From Desulfobacterales bacterium (GTDB taxonomy: Bacteria > Desulfobacterota > Desulfobacteria > Desulfobacterales > JASJAZ01), in assembly GCA_030066785.1 (NCBI GenBank), contig JASJAZ010000062.1, forward strand, positions 1 to 35,310: a DNA stretch of 35,310 nucleotides, read 5' to 3'. Both the position numbers and the translations under genes were made by a program. The notes under the pieces were generated by a model, which saw nothing but the letters and a program-made list of their open reading frames with translations, made no database searches and was not told where the DNA came from. Of this stretch, positions 5,732-22,159 are shown in pieces; within the stretch, counting starts at the first letter, position 1; each line of letters opens with the position of its first letter.

Positions 5732-6688
5732 CTAGCGCTTTAACAGGCTGGCCATGTTTTCATCCCGGGCCAATTGCTTTAGATCTTCCGCGCTTTGCTC
5801 AAGCTCAGCCGTGGTTTCAAATGTTATCTGAAGCGTGTAGGTTGGGGCTTCAAAATATTTAGGCGGGTTCAACCGCATATTGGGTGCCAGAGGCATGGCC
5901 TGTTTCCGGTTTTCAAAATCCTTTTCAACCCGGCGTATTTCCGGGAAACGCCTGCTTTGCAGATACTGCCGCAAGCGTGCAATTTGTTGATTGCGATCCA
6001 ACTCAAGGTCATTTAGTGTCACCTGTATTTCAGGTGTCGTCACGATTTGTTTGACTGCCAAGTCTTCTCTGGCGGCGATCTCCGTTATTTGCCTAAGAAT
6101 TTCTTTTTGTTTGTTCAGACTGAGTTTCAGATGCAAAAACAAATCGATCAGCACATCAGCAGCGCCCTGATCCATCTGCATCAATGCCAAGGCAACCGGC
6201 AAGGCAATTTCTTGCCGTATGATTCCAGCCTGTAATTTTGCGGGAAACGTAACTAAGGGCCTGATTTTAGATATAAACTTGGTGTTGGCCGGCAAGCCCA
6301 AGCTTGCGGCTATTTCAGGGAATTCTTTTGGTTTGGAAATAATATTTCTGATTAGCTGATATGACCGGCTGAGCTCCACCAAATTAAGGGATCGTTGGGA
6401 TACGTTGTCAGCGATGGCCAATTTAACACAATCAAACTCAGAAGCATTTTCGCTGATTACCTGCGCCGGCAGATGATCTGATTCAAGGCAACGAAGCGCC
6501 GCAATGCGTCGATGGCCGCATACGATTCCAAAACGATTAACTTTCTTAAAAAGAATGGGTGGATTAAGAATACCAACGGACCGGATGCTTGCGACAAGCG
6601 GTGGCCGGTTGGTGTCAGTGGTAATACGATAGCGAATATCCTTAGAATCGATGTCTCTAAGGGCAACAGTTGCCGACTTAAAATGCAT
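5732..6688 (-). CDS. ParB/Srx-fold (ParB N-terminal domain) protein
   Basis: 318 residues. The first ~100 residues resemble the ParB N-terminal nuclease/CTPase-like domain, with the pattern SIRSVGILNPPILF and the signature GIVCGHRRIAALRCL. The middle, around residues 115-200, could hold a helix-turn-helix (EIAASLGLPANTKFISKIR); the C-terminal third is unrecognised. It is not the usual chromosome-partitioning parB, because no parA or gid genes are next to it. Its ATG at 6688 lies inside the end of purC, an 11-base overlap in a different frame, so translation is probably coupled to purC termination. No convincing Shine-Dalgarno was seen. The link between purine synthesis and a ParB-fold protein is unexplained. 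Confidence 0.8.
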   Translation of the reverse strand: MHFKSATVALRDIDSKDIRYRITTDTNRPPLVASIRSVGILNPPILFKKVNRFGIVCGHRRIAALRCLESDHLPAQVISENASEFDCVKLAIADNVSQRSLNLVELSRSYQLIRNIISKPKEFPEIAASLGLPANTKFISKIRPLVTFPAKLQAGIIRQEIALPVALALMQMDQGAADVLIDLFLHLKLSLNKQKEILRQITEIAAREDLAVKQIVTTPEIQVTLNDLELDRNQQIARLRQYLQSRRFPEIRRVEKDFENRKQAMPLAPNMRLNPPKYFEAPTYTLQITFETTAELEQSAEDLKQLARDENMASLLKR

Positions 6689-8236: not shown

Positions 8237-8596
8237 TTACTTGGATAGAAATGCGTTAATGAATTTTTTTAACGTTTTTAAGGCAGTTTGATCAATTTCA
8301 ATAAAATTGATGCCTGTTTCGTATTTATCGTTATGGCCCGGCCGCGAGTAAATTACCTCGCCTTTGATATCCATGAGATCATTTTTAAGGCCAATGGTTA
8401 ACAACACCAAATGTTCCTGGTCGATGGGAAAGTGGGTCTCTAGCAAAATGCCGGTTTCTGATACATTCAATGTTCGACCCATGGATTGCTTAATAATATT
8501 ATGATCTTCGTCGATGAGTACATAAGACAGGTGTAGCGAATCTACTCGTTCGTGCTTGCGCTTTTCTTCTTTCATTTTTTCCTCGTCCTGTGACAT
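8237..8596 (-). CDS. PilZ-domain protein
   Basis: 119 residues, essentially one PilZ domain. The c-di-GMP-binding signatures are recognisable: the basic KRKHERVD segment, which fits RxxxR with Lys for the first Arg (K14-x3-R18 or nearby), and the NVSETGILLE segment matching (D/N)xSxxG. The rest follows the expected beta-barrel pattern and ends in a short helix (LKTLKKFINAFLSK). It probably responds to cyclic di-GMP and acts through a partner. It is the third gene of an operon with an MglA-like GTPase and a DUF4388/cNMP-like protein, 32 bases after the latter. Binding ability should be checked because the first Arg is not conserved. Confidence 0.88.
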   Translation of the reverse strand: MSQDEEKMKEEKRKHERVDSLHLSYVLIDEDHNIIKQSMGRTLNVSETGILLETHFPIDQEHLVLLTIGLKNDLMDIKGEVIYSRPGHNDKYETGINFIEIDQTALKTLKKFINAFLSK

Positions 8597-8628
8597 GAAT
8601 TTAAGGTTTCATGGACAATGACATCCGA

Positions 8629-9807
8629 TCATTGTTTACGGACTTTTTGGGGTTGTGATGTACAAGCAATGGCTGATGTAACCGATATACACGTCGCTAT
8701 ACTGTCAATTAAATTCTGGAAGGTCGGACTCAGTTTATTATATTCTTTTTGCAATTGAACCGGATCGACTTTACTGGCTTTAAGATCCTTAGATATTAGA
8801 ACAGAAGCTGAATCGGGCTCATGGCCCATATCTAAAAACGGAATTTGGCCAAAAAAATCACCCTCGACAAGATCTACCAAAGGTACCAGGCCTGAATCGG
8901 ATTTGCGTACAATTGTGGCTTCGCCCTTAACAATCTTAAAGAGGCGCTGCTCTTTCTTACCTTGCTTTATATAGGGCTTTTTGTTGCTTAGCCGCTGTTT
9001 AAAGCTATTGTTGCCTGTCTTGATGGCAACCGCACTCTCAGTGGCACGCTTCAGACGTTGATCAAAACTGATGAGAAAATTTCTAAATTCAGAAGAGCAA
9101 ACGGCAAATTCCTTGGCAAGTCTTTGGGAATCCAATACGGCCAGTTGAACGTTGCCCACGGCCACGGCGGTGGCGCTGCGGATATTGCCTTGTACCAGAA
9201 ATGAAGACAAACTTCCAATAAAGGCGCCATTGCCCAGCCGAAGGATTGTCAAGGGACCGTCCGGGGTTTCTTTGATGATATCAATGGCGCCCTCTAAAAT
9301 TGCCCAAATCCAACTGCCATGCTGCCCTGTTTTAATAATTTTTTCGCCATCATAAAACGATTCTTCATCCACCACATACATGTAGTCAACCAGGGGGCCG
9401 TTGATAAAAGGTACCGATGACGACTTCCCTGGTGCGCTGGCTGTCAACTTTTCGGCCGTTACCGGTCCTAATTTCTCAATTTCGCCCTCATCTAGCATTC
9501 GGAGGGCATCCAGAATAATTTCCATGCGATTCTTTTTGATAACCTTATCAGAATCGACTGAATCTTGTGTAAAATCGAACTCTCCATCTAGCCAACCAAA
9601 TAGGGATAACAGAGCTTCCAAGCCTTGCTGCGAATTGTTGGATGCGTTAATCGGATTGCCTTTTGAAAGATAAATATAGCCGGGTCCAGTTGCATAGCGG
9701 CTGGTCAGCTTCAGTGTACCAGTTGCGCCATTGCTGCCAAGCAGCTGAAGAACATCGGCCAGATTTAAAAAACTGAGGTTGCCGGCTATATCAGAGTTGT
9801 TGCGCAT
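8629..9807 (-). CDS. DUF4388 protein with two cyclic-nucleotide-binding-like domains
   Basis: 392 residues with three parts. Residues ~5-110 match DUF4388 (PatA N-terminal type), seen in IAGNLSFLNLADVLQLLGSNGATGTLKL and LFGWLDGEFDFT. Residues ~140-270 form a first cNMP-like beta-roll (KIIKTGQHGSWIWAILEG, LRLGNGAFIGSLSSFLVQG, RSATAVAVG). Residues ~275-390 form a second (KPYIKQGKKEQRLFKIVKGEATIV, LVEGDFFGQIPFLDMG). The second roll lacks a clear phosphate-binding Arg-Ala pair (it reads EPDSASV), so nucleotide binding may be lost there. It starts 9 bases after the GTPase gene and is surely co-transcribed. In deltaproteobacteria DUF4388 often occurs with MglA-type GTPases, so it may be a regulator or partner of that GTPase (inference). 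Confidence 0.85.
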   Translation of the reverse strand: MRNNSDIAGNLSFLNLADVLQLLGSNGATGTLKLTSRYATGPGYIYLSKGNPINASNNSQQGLEALLSLFGWLDGEFDFTQDSVDSDKVIKKNRMEIILDALRMLDEGEIEKLGPVTAEKLTASAPGKSSSVPFINGPLVDYMYVVDEESFYDGEKIIKTGQHGSWIWAILEGAIDIIKETPDGPLTILRLGNGAFIGSLSSFLVQGNIRSATAVAVGNVQLAVLDSQRLAKEFAVCSSEFRNFLISFDQRLKRATESAVAIKTGNNSFKQRLSNKKPYIKQGKKEQRLFKIVKGEATIVRKSDSGLVPLVDLVEGDFFGQIPFLDMGHEPDSASVLISKDLKASKVDPVQLQKEYNKLSPTFQNLIDSIATCISVTSAIACTSQPQKVRKQ

Positions 9808-9816
9808 AAGGTTTAT

Positions 9817-10422
9817 TTAATTGGTCCACTGTAACTGTCTTTTTAGGTCTACCAGCGTCAATTTTAAGCACTCTTTCAGCGTAATACCAACCCCTTGCCC
9901 ATTAATGGCACTTGCCGGAAAAATGGGTGATTTGAGCTGCTTGTTCAAGTCGTTGGCCATATCTTCAATTGACATGATTGGAACCGTAAGGTCCCTTTTA
10001 TTAAATTGCATGACCAACGGTACCTTGAAAATACTTAGTCCATATTCTTTCAAATTGTTATGCAAATCCTTTAAGGACAGCATATTTTTTTCGCGACGCA
10101 CTTTTAACGAGTCGGCCACAAATACAAGACCATCCACACCCCGCAGGACAAGTTTGCGCGTCGAACTGTATTTCACTTGACCTGGAACCGTATAAAGCTG
10201 AACACGAACGTTGCAGTCCTTGATTTTTCCGAGACCCATGGGCAAAAAATCAAAAAACAGCGTACGATCGCCTTCAGTATTAATCGATACCATTTCGCCG
10301 GAAACTTGTTTGGTATAGGCTTTATGAACATATTCCAAATTGGTTGTTTTACCGCATCGGCCGGGTCCATAATAGACAATTTTGCATTCTATTTCGCGCT
10401 TCTTAGCGTTAAAAACAGCCAT
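9817..10422 (-). CDS. MglA-like small Ras-superfamily GTPase
   Basis: 201 residues, closely matching Myxococcus MglA in layout: P-loop G19-PGRCG-KT (residues 19-26), switch I with R53 in EGDRTLFFDF, switch II TVPGQ with Q82, and the base-recognition motif N141-KRD. The Arg and Gln that serve catalysis in MglA are kept at the same positions. MglA sets cell polarity and motility in myxobacteria by binding effectors in its GTP form. The usual GAP partner, the Roadblock protein MglB, is absent from this window. The gene starts a four-gene operon with DUF4388/cNMP, PilZ and phosphoesterase genes. CGGAG precedes the ATG by a normal distance. In a non-myxobacterium the cellular role is open: polarity, surface motility or pili are candidates. 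Confidence 0.93.
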   Translation of the reverse strand: MAVFNAKKREIECKIVYYGPGRCGKTTNLEYVHKAYTKQVSGEMVSINTEGDRTLFFDFLPMGLGKIKDCNVRVQLYTVPGQVKYSSTRKLVLRGVDGLVFVADSLKVRREKNMLSLKDLHNNLKEYGLSIFKVPLVMQFNKRDLTVPIMSIEDMANDLNKQLKSPIFPASAINGQGVGITLKECLKLTLVDLKRQLQWTN

Positions 10423-10797: not shown

Positions 10798-12018
10798 CTA
10801 TAGTCGAACAATCTTGATGTCGAGGCAATAATCACCTTTTTTGGGCCCGGTATCAATCTGGGTGAGCCCGGAAACAACCCCTGCACCCATAAAAATGGCG
10901 ATGGAGGAATAAAATTGGATGTCTTCTAAGTGATCGCCTACTTTCAAAGCTTCCAAAAAATCGGCTTCCGCTTTGGCAATAATGAGACTAATCATATTGC
11001 CGGATTGAAAACTTACATCCAATTCAAACGATTGGGAAATCCCTGATTTGTCCTCAATTTCAAGAACGACAGAATTGATATCCAATACTTCTTCGGGAGC
11101 GACGCCTTCTATTTCCTCCGGCTTGGACTCAGCAACCGTCTCGGGTATGTTTGGCTCGGCTAATGGTTTAATTTCGGATGGCGCCTCGGATGGCGTTTCG
11201 GTCGCAGGCTCATTTTTAGGCAATTCCAACCCATCATCCGATTCGTTATCCAGTTCGACGACCAGTGAACTAATATCAATAAGCTCGGGCTCTTCCTCAT
11301 TTTTAGCAGGCGGTGACGGCGATGTTTCGACCACGGGCTCAGGATCGGCTGGTAATGCTGGCTCGGTGATGGATTCCGGCTCAGGTGGTGGTGGTTCCGG
11401 GACAGGTTCCGGCTCAGGTGCCGGTTGCGGAGCCGGAATGTTTAATGATGGCAGGGGCTCCTGTATTCCTTTTTTCTTAAATAAACCGTCTAAAAAGGAA
11501 TGCAACTTTTCTGATTGTGATGGCGTAAATAGATCATCATTGAGCCATTGGTCAAGTTGATCAACCGCCGTTTTAATGGCAGACAGCTCAACATGACACC
11601 GAAGTATATTTTTCGCCGAAACAACCCGGTACATTTTTCTTCTTAAAAGTTTGCGAAACTCTTCGATGGCGCTATCAAATTGGCCAAATTTAGCCAACGC
11701 TATCGCCCCCTCAAAGGCAACTTCATCCGGATTCTGACTTTGCGAAAAAGAAAATAATTGCTTGATAAGTTTTTTGGTGTGGGGTTGGACATCCTTGGTG
11801 GTGGATGCTTGTTCATCGGAATGATTTAAATTTTCAATCGATCGAATCCGTCTGGTGATCACATTGATAAGATTTTTACTTTTTTTAAGCTGATCATCGT
11901 TTTTAAGTATTTTCGCCGCGGAGAGATACTTTTTTTTGGCATCATCCAATAATCCCTGCGAATAATAAATCTCAGCTTCTTGAATAATAGCTTTTATTTG
12001 TTCTTTGGTATGCATCAA
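10798..12018 (-). CDS. TPR protein with a Pro/Glu-rich linker and a C-terminal beta domain
   Basis: 406 residues, probably cytoplasmic as no signal peptide is visible. Residues ~1-60 and ~90-200 are helical and look like TPR-type repeats (EAEIYYSQGLLDDAKKKYLSAA; ALAKFGQFDSAIEEFRKLL). Residues ~205-325 are a low-complexity linker rich in Pro and Glu with many PEP-type units. The last ~75 residues (from SFELDVSFQSGNMISLII) alternate like a small beta-barrel. Its ending resembles the tail region of some PilZ-like proteins, but the PilZ signatures are not present, so I do not call it PilZ. The gene is upstream of the MglA-like operon on the same strand, separated by 375 bases. An adaptor or scaffold role is plausible. 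Confidence 0.75.
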   Translation of the reverse strand: MMHTKEQIKAIIQEAEIYYSQGLLDDAKKKYLSAAKILKNDDQLKKSKNLINVITRRIRSIENLNHSDEQASTTKDVQPHTKKLIKQLFSFSQSQNPDEVAFEGAIALAKFGQFDSAIEEFRKLLRRKMYRVVSAKNILRCHVELSAIKTAVDQLDQWLNDDLFTPSQSEKLHSFLDGLFKKKGIQEPLPSLNIPAPQPAPEPEPVPEPPPPEPESITEPALPADPEPVVETSPSPPAKNEEEPELIDISSLVVELDNESDDGLELPKNEPATETPSEAPSEIKPLAEPNIPETVAESKPEEIEGVAPEEVLDINSVVLEIEDKSGISQSFELDVSFQSGNMISLIIAKAEADFLEALKVGDHLEDIQFYSSIAIFMGAGVVSGLTQIDTGPKKGDYCLDIKIVRL

Positions 12019-17539: not shown

Positions 17540-17567
17540 TTGACACTTTTACTTGAGTCAGTATATC
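17540..17567 (+). promoter_or_regulatory. Proximal promoter candidate of the paralogous gene pair
   Basis: TTGACA at 17540-17545, a 16-base spacer, then TATATC (17562-17567). A leader of about 235 bases would follow, with a further inverted repeat TATCCC/GGGATA at 17695-17700 and 17724-17729. The rest of 17141-17809 contains no gene I can support. Confidence 0.45.
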
Positions 17568-17809
17568 TTGGTAGTAGATATATTGCTGATATTATTAAAT
17601 TACCGTTAATTTTTCGACAAGAAAATCACACGGTCTTTTTATTTTTTAGCGTGCCAGATTCGTGACGGCAGCAGTATTTGTATTTTAGCGATATTATCCC
17701 TCATCGTCAGTGATTGGCCATCTGGGATATTAGCAAATATATAGAACTTAAAAATTTGAGAGGAGACGTTCAATCCGATTTTTTTTAATCCAGCGAAAGG
17801 AAATGAATT

Positions 17810-18505
17810 ATGGCAGCAAATGAACAAGAGGCAAACGAAATCGTCAGTCGGGATGAAATTTTGCAAGTCGAAAACCGGATTTTGCATCAGCTGATGGCAG
17901 CCAATACGGTTGAAGCGGTTGAAGCCTGCGTCAGTTACGCTCGGTTTTTGCGAATGTCAGGTTTAACTTCAGAAAATTATCCACTGTTTCTGAAAATGCT
18001 TGAGATCGAAAACCATTGGGTCTTGGATGCATTAATTGGAGAAAAAGATCCTTTTCTCTTGCTATCAACCATCCCGCCAAACAACTACCTTGTTTCCACG
18101 GCATTTAAATTAATGACCCGATGGCGCCCCGGAGGCATTTATCCTAAAACATTGGCGATTGTTCTTGGCGTACTTCAAAATGCTTATAGCTCACCGCGGG
18201 ATGGATACAGCATTTATTCACTAACCATTGCCGACATTGACAATCTAGGTAAGCACCTTGAGCAAGAAGTCGGGCAGGAAGAACCCAAAAACCGCTGTAT
18301 TTTGGACATTCTTGAAAAGATCGGCAGTTTAGAGGGGGTCCGCATTGATGAAAATATGGAGCAGGTTGCCCGCCAAGCATTAAAAATACGGACAAGTTTT
18401 TTTGACAACACTAAAATGCTTGAAGATGTGATTCCCCAGGTTCTAATAGTTAGAGGCGATTATCGTGCCGATGAATTACCACCCCAGCAACTTTATACTG
18501 ATTGA
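17810..18505 (+). CDS. Uncharacterised protein, first of a tandem paralogous pair
   Basis: 231 residues, soluble, predicted mostly helical, with no signal peptide or transmembrane segment. I do not recognise the family. The core at about residues 20-220 aligns along its whole length without large gaps to the product of the next gene. The best-kept block is PLFLKMLEIENHWV followed by LDALIGEKDPFLLLS; GGIYPK, LGVLQ, YSSP, GKHLE and EDVIPQVL blocks follow. The conserved HW, ALIGE and DPFLLLS segments suggest a structured core rather than a simple repeat. AAAGGA sits about nine bases before the ATG. It is followed by its paralogue after 33 bases, so the two are co-transcribed behind the long structured leader. 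Confidence 0.75.
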   Translation: MAANEQEANEIVSRDEILQVENRILHQLMAANTVEAVEACVSYARFLRMSGLTSENYPLFLKMLEIENHWVLDALIGEKDPFLLLSTIPPNNYLVSTAFKLMTRWRPGGIYPKTLAIVLGVLQNAYSSPRDGYSIYSLTIADIDNLGKHLEQEVGQEEPKNRCILDILEKIGSLEGVRIDENMEQVARQALKIRTSFFDNTKMLEDVIPQVLIVRGDYRADELPPQQLYTD

Positions 18506-18538
18506 TATTAACAGCCAAGAGCAAATGAGGAGGTAGCA

Positions 18539-19297
18539 ATGACTTACCCTGGATATAGTGTAAAATGGACCGATGAAGACATAACGGAAATTGAAAATCG
18601 ATTGTTGCAGGGCATTTTTCAATGCCGCACCACGGAAGCGGTTGAGGCCGCCGTTACCTACGCCCGCTTTTTAAGCACTGTAGGAATTACGCCCGAAAAT
18701 TGCCCTCTCTTTTTAAAAATGCTTGAAATCGAGAACCATTGGGTCATCGATGCGTTAATCGGCGAACGCGATCCATTTTTATTGCTTTCAGCAGTAAAGC
18801 CCAATGAATACATTGTTGGCCGTATTTTTGCTATGATGACCAAATGGCATAAAGGCGGCATTTATCCTAAAAACCTTTCGGTAATTCTGGGCGTTCTTCA
18901 ATCTGTCTACAGCAGCCCTAAAGAAGGCTATCGCATTTATCCTTTGACAATTGCCAATTTGAACGCCATGGGCAAGCATTTGGATAAAGAAAAAGGTCAA
19001 GATGATCCCCTGAACCGAATTATTTTAGAAATCTTGGATAAAATAACTGAATTGGAAGATAGCGGTAACCCGGATATGGAATTAGTGGCAATTCATGCCG
19101 CCAATATCCGCAATAGCTTTTTCGACATTCGCAAACGAATGGAAGATGTTATTCCGCCGGTGCTTATGGTAACCATGGATGAACGCAGCGAAATACCACC
19201 GCGCAAGCAAAAAAAAGTAACCGTGGATTTTACACCAGCCAAAGCGGCTGATAGCAAAACGACGCCTTCCAAAGCGACCAAAAAGAAAGTTGCATAG
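18539..19297 (+). CDS. Uncharacterised protein, second of a tandem paralogous pair, with basic tail
   Basis: 252 residues. It shares with the preceding gene product the blocks TEAVEA, YARFL, PLFLKMLEIENHWV, DALIGE, DPFLLLS, GGIYPK, LGVLQ, YSSP and EDVIPPVL; by eye, roughly half or more of the core positions are identical. It differs by a C-terminal extension of about 35 residues rich in Lys, Thr and Ala (PPRKQKKVTVDF, then PSKATKKKVA at the end), resembling the nucleic-acid-binding tails of some bacterial proteins, although function is not shown. The pair has diverged well beyond a recent copy event, so both are likely under selection and may form a heteromer (inference). GAGGAGG precedes the start. 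A terminator-like hairpin follows the stop. Confidence 0.75.
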   Translation: MTYPGYSVKWTDEDITEIENRLLQGIFQCRTTEAVEAAVTYARFLSTVGITPENCPLFLKMLEIENHWVIDALIGERDPFLLLSAVKPNEYIVGRIFAMMTKWHKGGIYPKNLSVILGVLQSVYSSPKEGYRIYPLTIANLNAMGKHLDKEKGQDDPLNRIILEILDKITELEDSGNPDMELVAIHAANIRNSFFDIRKRMEDVIPPVLMVTMDERSEIPPRKQKKVTVDFTPAKAADSKTTPSKATKKKVA

Positions 19298-19380: not shown

Positions 19381-19420
19381 TAGGCGGTTATGTACATATT
19401 GATAGTGAGGAGATTATTCA

Positions 19421-19636
19421 ATAGTTGCCTCTGGTCAGGATAAAACCAATCGCGACAGGACTCAGTTAAGAAACACTGGCGAAGCACTTTTTTCGTTCAA
19501 TCAGGAAGAAATGCAGCTTCTCATTAAAGCGTGCCGCAAGTATCGTACAACCATTCCCAGTTATATCGCTTCACGAAAATGGGAAGTTGATTTGGTTGAT
19601 TCGGTCATCGAAAAGCTGAACACGCAGATGAACTAG
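19421..19636 (+). CDS. Small uncharacterised protein, possible ATA start
   Basis: A 71-codon frame opens after a TGA at 19404-19406 and ends at TAG 19634-19636. AGGAG at 19408-19412 lies eight bases before ATA 19421, an ideal ribosome-binding distance, yet there is no ATG, GTG or TTG in frame there; the first in-frame ATG is at 19511, with no ribosome binding site. The encoded residues look like real protein: polar N-terminus (DKTNRDRTQLRNTGEALFSF), then helical NQEEMQLLIKACRKYRTTIP and SYIASRKWEVDLVDSVIEKL. Either ATA is a rare, weak start codon, as ATT is for infC, or an ATG was mutated. I do not recognise a family. It sits between the paralogous pair and the pseudo-receiver gene on the same strand. 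Confidence 0.45.
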   Translation: MVASGQDKTNRDRTQLRNTGEALFSFNQEEMQLLIKACRKYRTTIPSYIASRKWEVDLVDSVIEKLNTQMN

Positions 19637-19822: not shown

Positions 19823-22159
19823 ATGTCAAATCGTTGCGTACTAATCATGGACGAAGATGAACGATTCGTTCAGTTCGTAACTAATTCAATGACTCCCTTT
19901 GGTTTTGATGTGCAATGCGTAGATCGCAACCCTGAAGGCATTCAACAGATCAAATCATTCAAACCTAATTTGATCCTTATTTCCGCCGAACAATCTGACA
20001 AATCCGGTTTATCACTGTGCTGCAAAACCAAAAAAGCAGTCGGCAAACGTGTTCCCGTAGTATTAACAACTGCAACCTTATCAAAAGATGAATTGGAGTT
20101 GCACTCGAAACAGCGTCTTCACGCGGATACTTATTTGTTCAAAGATAATTTGACACCGGAAATACTAGTGGCAAAAATCGGAAATCTTTTGCAATTGGAT
20201 CAGATGGATAATTTTGATGAAGTGATGGCGTCCATCCAAAATGTAAATCATATGGGCGAGACTGAGTTGAATCTCGGTGGCAAAAAAGATTCAGATCCTC
20301 CCTGGATGCAAGAATTACTAGCAGAGACCTCCTCCAAGGCCAAATTGAATAATACCAAAATTTCTGAACAGTCTTTTACCGCAGATGATTCTGATAATTA
20401 TATGACAGCAGATATACGTAAACGCCTTGTTGAACAAGAAAAAGAGATATCCTATTTACGTTACGAATTGAAAGAGGCCAAACGCGACGCCCGCAGTTCG
20501 CCTTTTTCGAGTGATTTTTTAAATATCCGCGAGGATGCAGCGCAAAAAGATAAGCAGATTGTTCATCTTTCCGAAAAGATTGCCGCAAGCCAACAAACCA
20601 ATATCGATAACGAAGAAAAGCTCCGTGAGTTAGCTGAACGCGTCAATACACTTCGTAAAGAAAGTGAAAAACTTCGCGAGAAAGAAAAAGACTTGACCAT
20701 TCGCCACGAAGTCGCCCAAACTGAATTGGTTAAATTAAACGCTTTATATGAAGATAAATGCAAAGAGTTTGACGATCATATCAATTCGTTTCAAACGCAA
20801 CTAAACGATGCAATCGCGGTAAAAGAAAAAGAATTTCAAAAAACGTTCGAAGAGCTTGAAGATAATTTGGAACTTGAAAACCAGCAAGCTTTAGAAGATT
20901 TGGAAGCCGAAATCAGAGACGAACTCACCAACGAACATAACGCGGTTTTAACAAACATTCGCGAAGCGAATGCTGAAGAGCTTGCCAAACAGAATAAAAT
21001 TTTTGAAGAGGCGCGGGAACATTTTGAATCCCTAATTTCTGATTTAGAAGCAGATCACCAGACTGAATTGAAAAATTATGACCAACAGGCTGCTGATCAA
21101 ACGGCGGATGCACTTAAAAAAGCTGAGTCTGATTTTCAAGTAGAATTAGATAAATTATCACAAGCACATGCTGCTGAAAGCAAACGTTTAAATAAAGAAA
21201 TTGAAGCGCTGCAGTCAGGTCAAAACGATCAGCTTGAAGCAGCCGAGGCCAAGCACCAAGTTAGGCTAGCAGAATATGAACAAGAATTGCGCAAAGAAAT
21301 AACAACCGTCCAACAACAAGCAGCCGAAGAAAAAGCCGAAGCGCTCAAAGACGCCCATGATGAATTTCAAGAAAAAATAAAAGAACTGGAAGAAAAGCAC
21401 GCTGCCATTTTTTTGGAAAAAGAAAGAAAGCTAGAAGTCGAATTAAATAAAGCGCAAAAACAATTAGATCTTGAAAAAGCAAACGCAACTACAACAGCAA
21501 AAGATCAACACAAAAAAGAGATAGATTCAATTTGCAAAAAGTATGAGAAGCGCACCGCGGAACTCACGGATAAACACAGCAAGGAAATCAGTCGACTGAC
21601 CCAATCACTTGAAAAAGAACGCCAGCAGAATGCCAACCGCATGCAGGCCCAGAAATCCAAACACCAAAAAGAAATAGAACAAAAAGATCAACAACTGGAA
21701 AACACCATCAAAAAAATTGAAAAGAAATTTATCAAAGCAAAAAACATTGCAGCAACTTCCGTCGAAGCACAATATAAACAGGAAACTGACACACTGCGCC
21801 AAAAACATGATGACCAGATTGCTGAGCTAACTGAAAAACACACGGTAGAAATCAAAAAGCTGCAAACAGAGCTTAAGCAAGCGCAAAAAACTGCTCAGGA
21901 CCAGCATACAAGGATTTCAACCGAACAGCATCAAAAAGAATTGCAGGAAATTGAACAAAAATTACAAAAGGAGACTAAAGACCTTACCTCAAAAATGGAA
22001 GGGATGCGCAAAGAAAAGAGTGCGGAAATAGAATCGATCAAACAGCGTGCCATTGATGAACTGCGCAAAGTCAAAGAAAAACTTATGAATGAAAAGAAAG
22101 CCCACGAAGCCACCCGCCATGAACTTGAATCCAAAATTGCCCAGTTTTTAAGCAAATAG
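19823..22159 (+). CDS. Pseudo-receiver domain plus very long coiled coil (FrzS/AglZ-like architecture)
   Basis: 778 residues. Residues 1-125 are a response-regulator receiver fold (VLIMDED at the start; LFKDNLTPEILVAKI near the end). The phospho-acceptor Asp is replaced by Ser54 in KPNLILISAEQ, although D10/E11, T83 and K107 equivalents remain, so phosphotransfer is unlikely. Residues ~185-775 are almost unbroken Glu/Lys/Gln-rich heptads, a coiled coil that could exceed 80 nm. This combination is known for FrzS and AglZ of Myxococcus, polar proteins that work with the GTPase MglA in motility. The homology of the coiled coil is not provable by eye because such sequences are compositionally alike. 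AGGAAGAGG precedes the ATG. The MglA-like gene lies 9 kb away on the other strand. A scaffold or polarity role is inferred. Confidence 0.8.
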   Translation: MSNRCVLIMDEDERFVQFVTNSMTPFGFDVQCVDRNPEGIQQIKSFKPNLILISAEQSDKSGLSLCCKTKKAVGKRVPVVLTTATLSKDELELHSKQRLHADTYLFKDNLTPEILVAKIGNLLQLDQMDNFDEVMASIQNVNHMGETELNLGGKKDSDPPWMQELLAETSSKAKLNNTKISEQSFTADDSDNYMTADIRKRLVEQEKEISYLRYELKEAKRDARSSPFSSDFLNIREDAAQKDKQIVHLSEKIAASQQTNIDNEEKLRELAERVNTLRKESEKLREKEKDLTIRHEVAQTELVKLNALYEDKCKEFDDHINSFQTQLNDAIAVKEKEFQKTFEELEDNLELENQQALEDLEAEIRDELTNEHNAVLTNIREANAEELAKQNKIFEEAREHFESLISDLEADHQTELKNYDQQAADQTADALKKAESDFQVELDKLSQAHAAESKRLNKEIEALQSGQNDQLEAAEAKHQVRLAEYEQELRKEITTVQQQAAEEKAEALKDAHDEFQEKIKELEEKHAAIFLEKERKLEVELNKAQKQLDLEKANATTTAKDQHKKEIDSICKKYEKRTAELTDKHSKEISRLTQSLEKERQQNANRMQAQKSKHQKEIEQKDQQLENTIKKIEKKFIKAKNIAATSVEAQYKQETDTLRQKHDDQIAELTEKHTVEIKKLQTELKQAQKTAQDQHTRISTEQHQKELQEIEQKLQKETKDLTSKMEGMRKEKSAEIESIKQRAIDELRKVKEKLMNEKKAHEATRHELESKIAQFLSK

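Follow-up and report, generated by a model that had tools for sequence, protein, structure and literature searches.

The described systems nearest to the locus analysed here are FrzS and AglZ, polar motility proteins of Myxococcus xanthus, and the ATPases of the ParA/MinD family with their adaptors. FrzS needs His92 and Tyr102 for its leading-pole localisation and for social motility, and AglZ has the same pair of residues (PMC1974792). The partners of ParA/MinD ATPases carry positively charged, disordered N-termini, and the remainder of these proteins binds the cargo (PMC10241942). The window, by which we mean the whole stretch of 35,310 nucleotides that was analysed, from a Desulfobacterales bacterium, encodes two paralogous proteins, A and B, followed by a small gene, H, and by a FrzS/AglZ-like gene, R. 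None of the libraries which we searched describes the A/B family or H, and R belongs to a known kind. The pair is kept together across four phyla, usually with H and in most lineages also with a long, rod-shaped FrzS-like protein, so that these proteins probably constitute an unrecognised module for intracellular organisation.

The A-B pair, its distribution and its predicted fold

Gene A (17810-18505, plus strand) encodes a predicted all-helical protein of 231 residues from an unnamed family and is supported by its ORF, its orthologs and an AlphaFold2 model, and gene B (18539-19297, plus strand) encodes a paralog of 252 residues, supported by its ORF and by its placement in a separate clade. 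The two ORFs, which the initial annotation had described as adjacent genes of these lengths, are both complete and lie 33 nt apart; a sigma-70-like promoter match upstream of A (TTGACA-18-TATCTT, 17540-17569, plus strand) is a match to the consensus only. Long identical blocks had also been reported in the two proteins, and we found PLFLKMLEIENHWV and DPFLLLS to be exactly the same in A and B. Likewise, the Lys/Thr/Ala-rich C-terminal tail attributed to the second protein is present in B as KKVTVDFTPAKAADSKTTPSKATKKKVA (about 19208-19294, plus strand). The copies had further been thought to be widely diverged outside these blocks, but BLASTP aligned them with 123 identities in 213 positions (58%; 254 bits, E 2e-90), which is a moderate divergence across nearly the whole length. 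The conserved core is nearly the same in A and B, with many charged or polar residues invariant in both, and a single position (Q189/H186) separates them at a conservation of at least 90% in each.

Besides Desulfobacterales, A had relatives in Acidobacteria/Vicinamibacteria, in one Pseudomonadota MAG and in Spirochaetota. The pair is rare, being present in 1 of the 297 genomes sampled from the window's phylum, 11 of 296 Spirochaetota and 1 of 247 Acidobacteriota (each count includes the centre genome). Among 40 close relatives the pair was found in 3, again with the centre genome included, and was missing from most, against what a conserved Desulfobacterota operon would lead one to expect; it is therefore an accessory system of patchy occurrence. 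On all complete contigs A and B stand in tandem, A first, with a gap of 11-62 nt, and neither gene ever occurs alone. Most pair genomes have exactly one pair, and some spirochaetes have 4-6 paralogs, most of them in one cluster. In a maximum-likelihood tree the A and B sequences formed separate clades, each of which extends across four phyla with matching splits; the duplication is therefore ancient and earlier than the spread of the pair. With the multi-paralog spirochaetes left out, A orthologs were 66-80% and B orthologs 67-83% identical to the window's proteins, and both proteins were better conserved than UvrB in the same genomes (52-72%: spirochaetes 52-54%, Acidobacteria 58-59%, the Pseudomonadota MAG 63% and Desulfobacterales 71-72%). 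The higher identity, together with the separate and matching clades, indicates that both copies are retained under strong constraint. The identity matrices of A and B were correlated with r = 0.93, a figure which common descent could produce by itself and which, with no control protein set beside it, we do not count as evidence of binding. The strong conservation and the long co-existence of two copies proposed in the initial annotation were thus borne out: A and B are an ancient, obligate paralog pair in permanent tandem, co-inherited with H and, outside the spirochaetes, with a FrzS/AglZ-type protein.

The view that the family is an unrecognised one also stood, as no family in Pfam or NCBIfam reached its cut-off for A or B, the A/B family profile gave nothing significant in the PDB, and searches of PHROG, PADLOC, phage, plasmid and IMG/VR sequences returned no A/B relative. 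A housekeeping or otherwise known family was rejected on these grounds, the matches to Dak2 and TTRAP being sub-threshold, and a phage, plasmid or defence origin was rejected for want of any match, two sub-significant PHROG matches to H being uninformative. The AlphaFold2 model (33 rows; listed under gene A) is all-helical, as had been expected of these proteins, with a pLDDT of 84.6 and a pTM of 0.78. Its top structural matches were ARM/HEAT solenoids (best E value 0.12 with Foldseek, best Z 8.4 with VIA-align), at scores which helical repeats can reach by chance; for such repeats the Z value may reflect no more than a shared arrangement of helices. Because A and B share one reading frame, they were co-folded as a single read-through chain, with stops read as Gly and 12 paired rows; the resulting model had a pTM of 0.57 and a pLDDT of 68.3, and the Foldseek matches of the chain had low TM-scores.

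This co-fold, which is not confident, leaves room for another reading. A and B could be specialised versions that act separately, as alternative adaptors or regulators, and stand in tandem with no joint complex. The nearly identical cores with their one separating position would agree with such a division of roles, and so would the expansion to 4-6 members in spirochaetes, which is expected for adaptor variants. However, exactly A and B are kept in four phyla and never singly on complete contigs, and two genes fixed side by side more typically encode a complex; we regard separate action as rather unlikely and prefer to see A and B as subunits of one assembly.

The small gene H and the pseudo-receiver protein R

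The gene order had been said to lead from the pair to a pseudo-receiver coiled-coil protein; the next large gene, R, does encode one, but the small gene H intervenes. Gene H (19421-19636, plus strand) would encode 71 residues from an inferred ATA start and has a C-terminal motif of about 45 residues, C..Y[RK]...P.Y, in which the C, Y, P and Y are invariant. It lies directly 3' of B in all Desulfobacterales, acidobacterial and Pseudomonadota loci that could be read that far. One strong H match was obtained in each of the 13 tested genomes (13/13) with the non-multiparalog type of pair, and the strong matches among 146 relatives numbered four, all in pair genomes; a profile search of the pair genomes gave no H match in the multi-paralog spirochaetes.

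In the window there is no ATG, GTG or TTG upstream of the H domain in the H frame. A likely ribosome-binding site, AGGAG (19408-19412, plus strand), is placed 8 nt before the ATA, and the same spacing was seen in five other loci, which read GGAG-8-ATT in the Desulfobacterales loci L001, L002, L003 and L053 and GGAG-8-GTG in the acidobacterial L005. Since the spacing between the ribosome-binding site and the start agrees in six loci, a non-canonical start is supported, and H in Desulfobacterales appears, from the sequence, to begin at an AUU or AUA codon. A sequencing error could account for the ATA of the window, and hardly for the ATT of four other loci. Among known genes, infC and pcnB begin with AUU, a start which lowers translation. 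Ordinary gene callers would miss H, because its inferred start codon is not NTG.

Gene R (19823-22159, plus strand) encodes 778 residues, comprising a FrzS/AglZ-like pseudo-receiver domain (19823-20185, plus strand) and then a long coiled coil. The receiver domain was matched by Pfam at an E value of 1.7e-6, slightly below the curated cut-off, and in the PDB the R receiver profile scored best with YycF (E 1.7e-14), FrzS coming second (E 4.7e-14). The phospho-Asp position is replaced by Ser or Ala in 7 of 7 aligned sequences; His94 and Tyr104 are kept invariant and align with FrzS His92 and Tyr102. After the receiver, R proteins have a predicted coiled coil of about 500-1100 residues, in which 44-49% of residues are charged or Gln and Pro stays under about 2%, and heptad periodicity was noticed by a crude measure in several sequence windows of this region. 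Between the receiver and the coiled coil lies the segment SSPFSSDFLNIRE (20495-20533, plus strand), a candidate docking motif, whose S-P-F-S is invariant in ten R proteins; among the 297 phylum genomes this segment occurred in one, the window's own.

The R receiver profile matched the proteins beside the pair at E values of 1e-49 to 1e-58 in the five tested Thermodesulfobacteriota/Acidobacteriota genomes, and seven control relatives had ordinary receivers only, at about 1e-11 to 1e-14. All the non-spirochaete pair genomes that were tested contained the subfamily. In genomes G337 and G338 it is encoded away from the pair (E 1e-32 and 3e-22), G337 having three R copies, one of them with an internal stop, and a search with the same profile did not find the subfamily in spirochaetes; R is hence not universally required. 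The link between the pair and a pseudo-receiver coiled-coil protein, looked for as a conserved neighbourhood, therefore holds in Thermodesulfobacteriota and Acidobacteriota and not in spirochaetes.

Elsewhere in the window, on the minus strand at 8237-10422, a PilZ-domain gene, a DUF4388/cyclic-nucleotide-binding gene and a gene for a small Arf-like GTPase follow one another, some 7 kb away from A. The GTPase is presumably MglA-like. MglA acts with FrzS in Myxococcus, and a functional link of this gene to the module is therefore possible. Also on the minus strand are genes for a 318-residue protein with a weak ParB_N match (5732-6688; 24.9 against a Pfam cut-off of 26.3 bits) and for a 406-residue protein (10798-12018), which has a long linker rich in Pro and Glu and gave weak matches to TPR.

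Spirochaete contexts and a dedicated ParA

Partner genes vary among contexts, and A and B are constant. In one group of spirochaetes, genes for a ParA and for H lie on the opposite strand and are followed by genes for an RsbW-like ATPase, a small H-like protein, A and B; after B come genes for a 360-residue protein, a STAS protein, an alpha/beta hydrolase and another STAS protein, with SpoIIE and HDOD genes nearby. The H domain here forms the C-terminal end of the protein encoded beside the dedicated ParA, and H has a remote relative (hhalign probability 93%) in the protein of 81-149 residues whose gene immediately precedes A. The protein of about 360 residues (L008, 9472-10560, and orthologs), which belongs to this one group, contains what appears to be a duplicated domain and is matched by no Pfam family. 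Kinship between the R receiver and the N-terminal part of the HATPase protein of spirochaetes was considered and rejected (hhalign probability 14%). In a second group, A and B are accompanied by more paralogs, by a phosphatase of the calcineurin-like type (Pfam E 1e-11) and by a protein of 300 residues that Pfam does not match. In loci L044-L052 the clusters of 4-6 family members occur with the phosphatase (f3), and the unclassified protein of about 300 residues (f13) has a conserved DEDRNPNNY motif and is possibly an atypical kinase.

The dedicated ParA adjoins H in loci L008, L010, L011 and L014 and stands apart at E < 1e-130, other ParAs scoring 1e-59 or weaker. One alternative is that A, B and H serve as cargo and adaptor in a positioning system of the ParA type, comparable to McdA/McdB, with R substituting for ParA in Desulfobacterota and Acidobacteria. 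The H-domain protein of spirochaetes, encoded directly after the dedicated ParA, indeed has a basic N-terminus (MARKRLIKGPNAERVEKR) of the sort described for ParA/MinD partners (PMC10241942). Yet no dedicated ParA was found in the window's genome or in the other non-spirochaete pair genomes, where only ordinary ParAs occur, and the N-termini of the Desulfobacterales H proteins are short and not clearly basic. None of the profiles which we used identified H as McdB. We consider this alternative improbable. That A and B are enzymes of some reaction, with an active site drawn from N68, H69, D73, D80, K148, H149 and R162, would suit their many invariant charged or polar residues but was rejected as very improbable, because several key residues are not retained in the divergent paralogs (H69, D80 and H149 are lost; N68, D73, K148, N161, R194 and D199 stay), the predicted fold is helical-repeat-like, and the genes nearby are of signalling or scaffold type, none of them metabolic.

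A proposed organising module and its relation to known systems

Our preferred reading, to which we give a probability of roughly one half, is that A and B are subunits of a hetero-oligomeric ARM/HEAT-like alpha-solenoid hub, with H as a partner and with R or a ParA as the spatial organiser. A and B would join in one heteromeric alpha-solenoid, H would be the small partner protein of this hub, and R would be the scaffold which places it at the pole or at another fixed site, the S-P-F-S segment of R being a candidate docking site. The parts by which signals reach the hub would differ between lineages: in Thermodesulfobacteriota and Acidobacteriota, R; in one spirochaete group the dedicated ParA with H, the RsbW-like ATPase, the STAS proteins and the SpoIIE phosphatase; and in the other spirochaete group the calcineurin-like phosphatase and the unclassified protein. 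We infer mutual binding among A, B, H and R, and by analogy with FrzS and AglZ the assembly may take a polar position and may control motility or surface behaviour. More tentatively, and at somewhat less than an even chance, A, B and H could be an unrecognised scaffold which plugs into differing organisers, FrzS/AglZ-like in Desulfobacterota and Acidobacteria and a dedicated ParA in spirochaetes, with the level of H kept low by its conserved AUU/AUA start.

The readout of FrzS/AglZ-type pseudo-receivers without phosphorylation is an open question, for which the module gives conserved candidate partners, A, B and H, outside Myxococcus. The A/B proteins are in addition an exceptionally conserved family, found in four phyla and described by none of the libraries searched.

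As regards known systems, A and B resemble the ARM/HEAT alpha-solenoids (importin-alpha, beta-catenin, mDia1) in that these are the class of the best structural matches to the A/B model, but there is no sequence similarity and the structural scores are within the chance range for helical repeats. The spirochaete loci are like ParA/MinD systems with an adaptor, such as McdA/McdB, in having a ParA-family ATPase gene and, directly after it, a gene for a small protein whose N-terminus is basic and whose separate C-terminal domain is conserved (PMC10241942), and the window's genome differs from these systems in lacking a dedicated ParA. R is like FrzS and AglZ in its N-terminal receiver without the phospho-Asp and its long C-terminal coiled coil, and it has the His and the switch Tyr equivalent to His92 and Tyr102 of FrzS (PMC1974792). 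It differs from both Myxococcus proteins in that no Frz genes adjoin it, in being encoded alongside A, B and H, and in having an S-P-F-S segment of its own.
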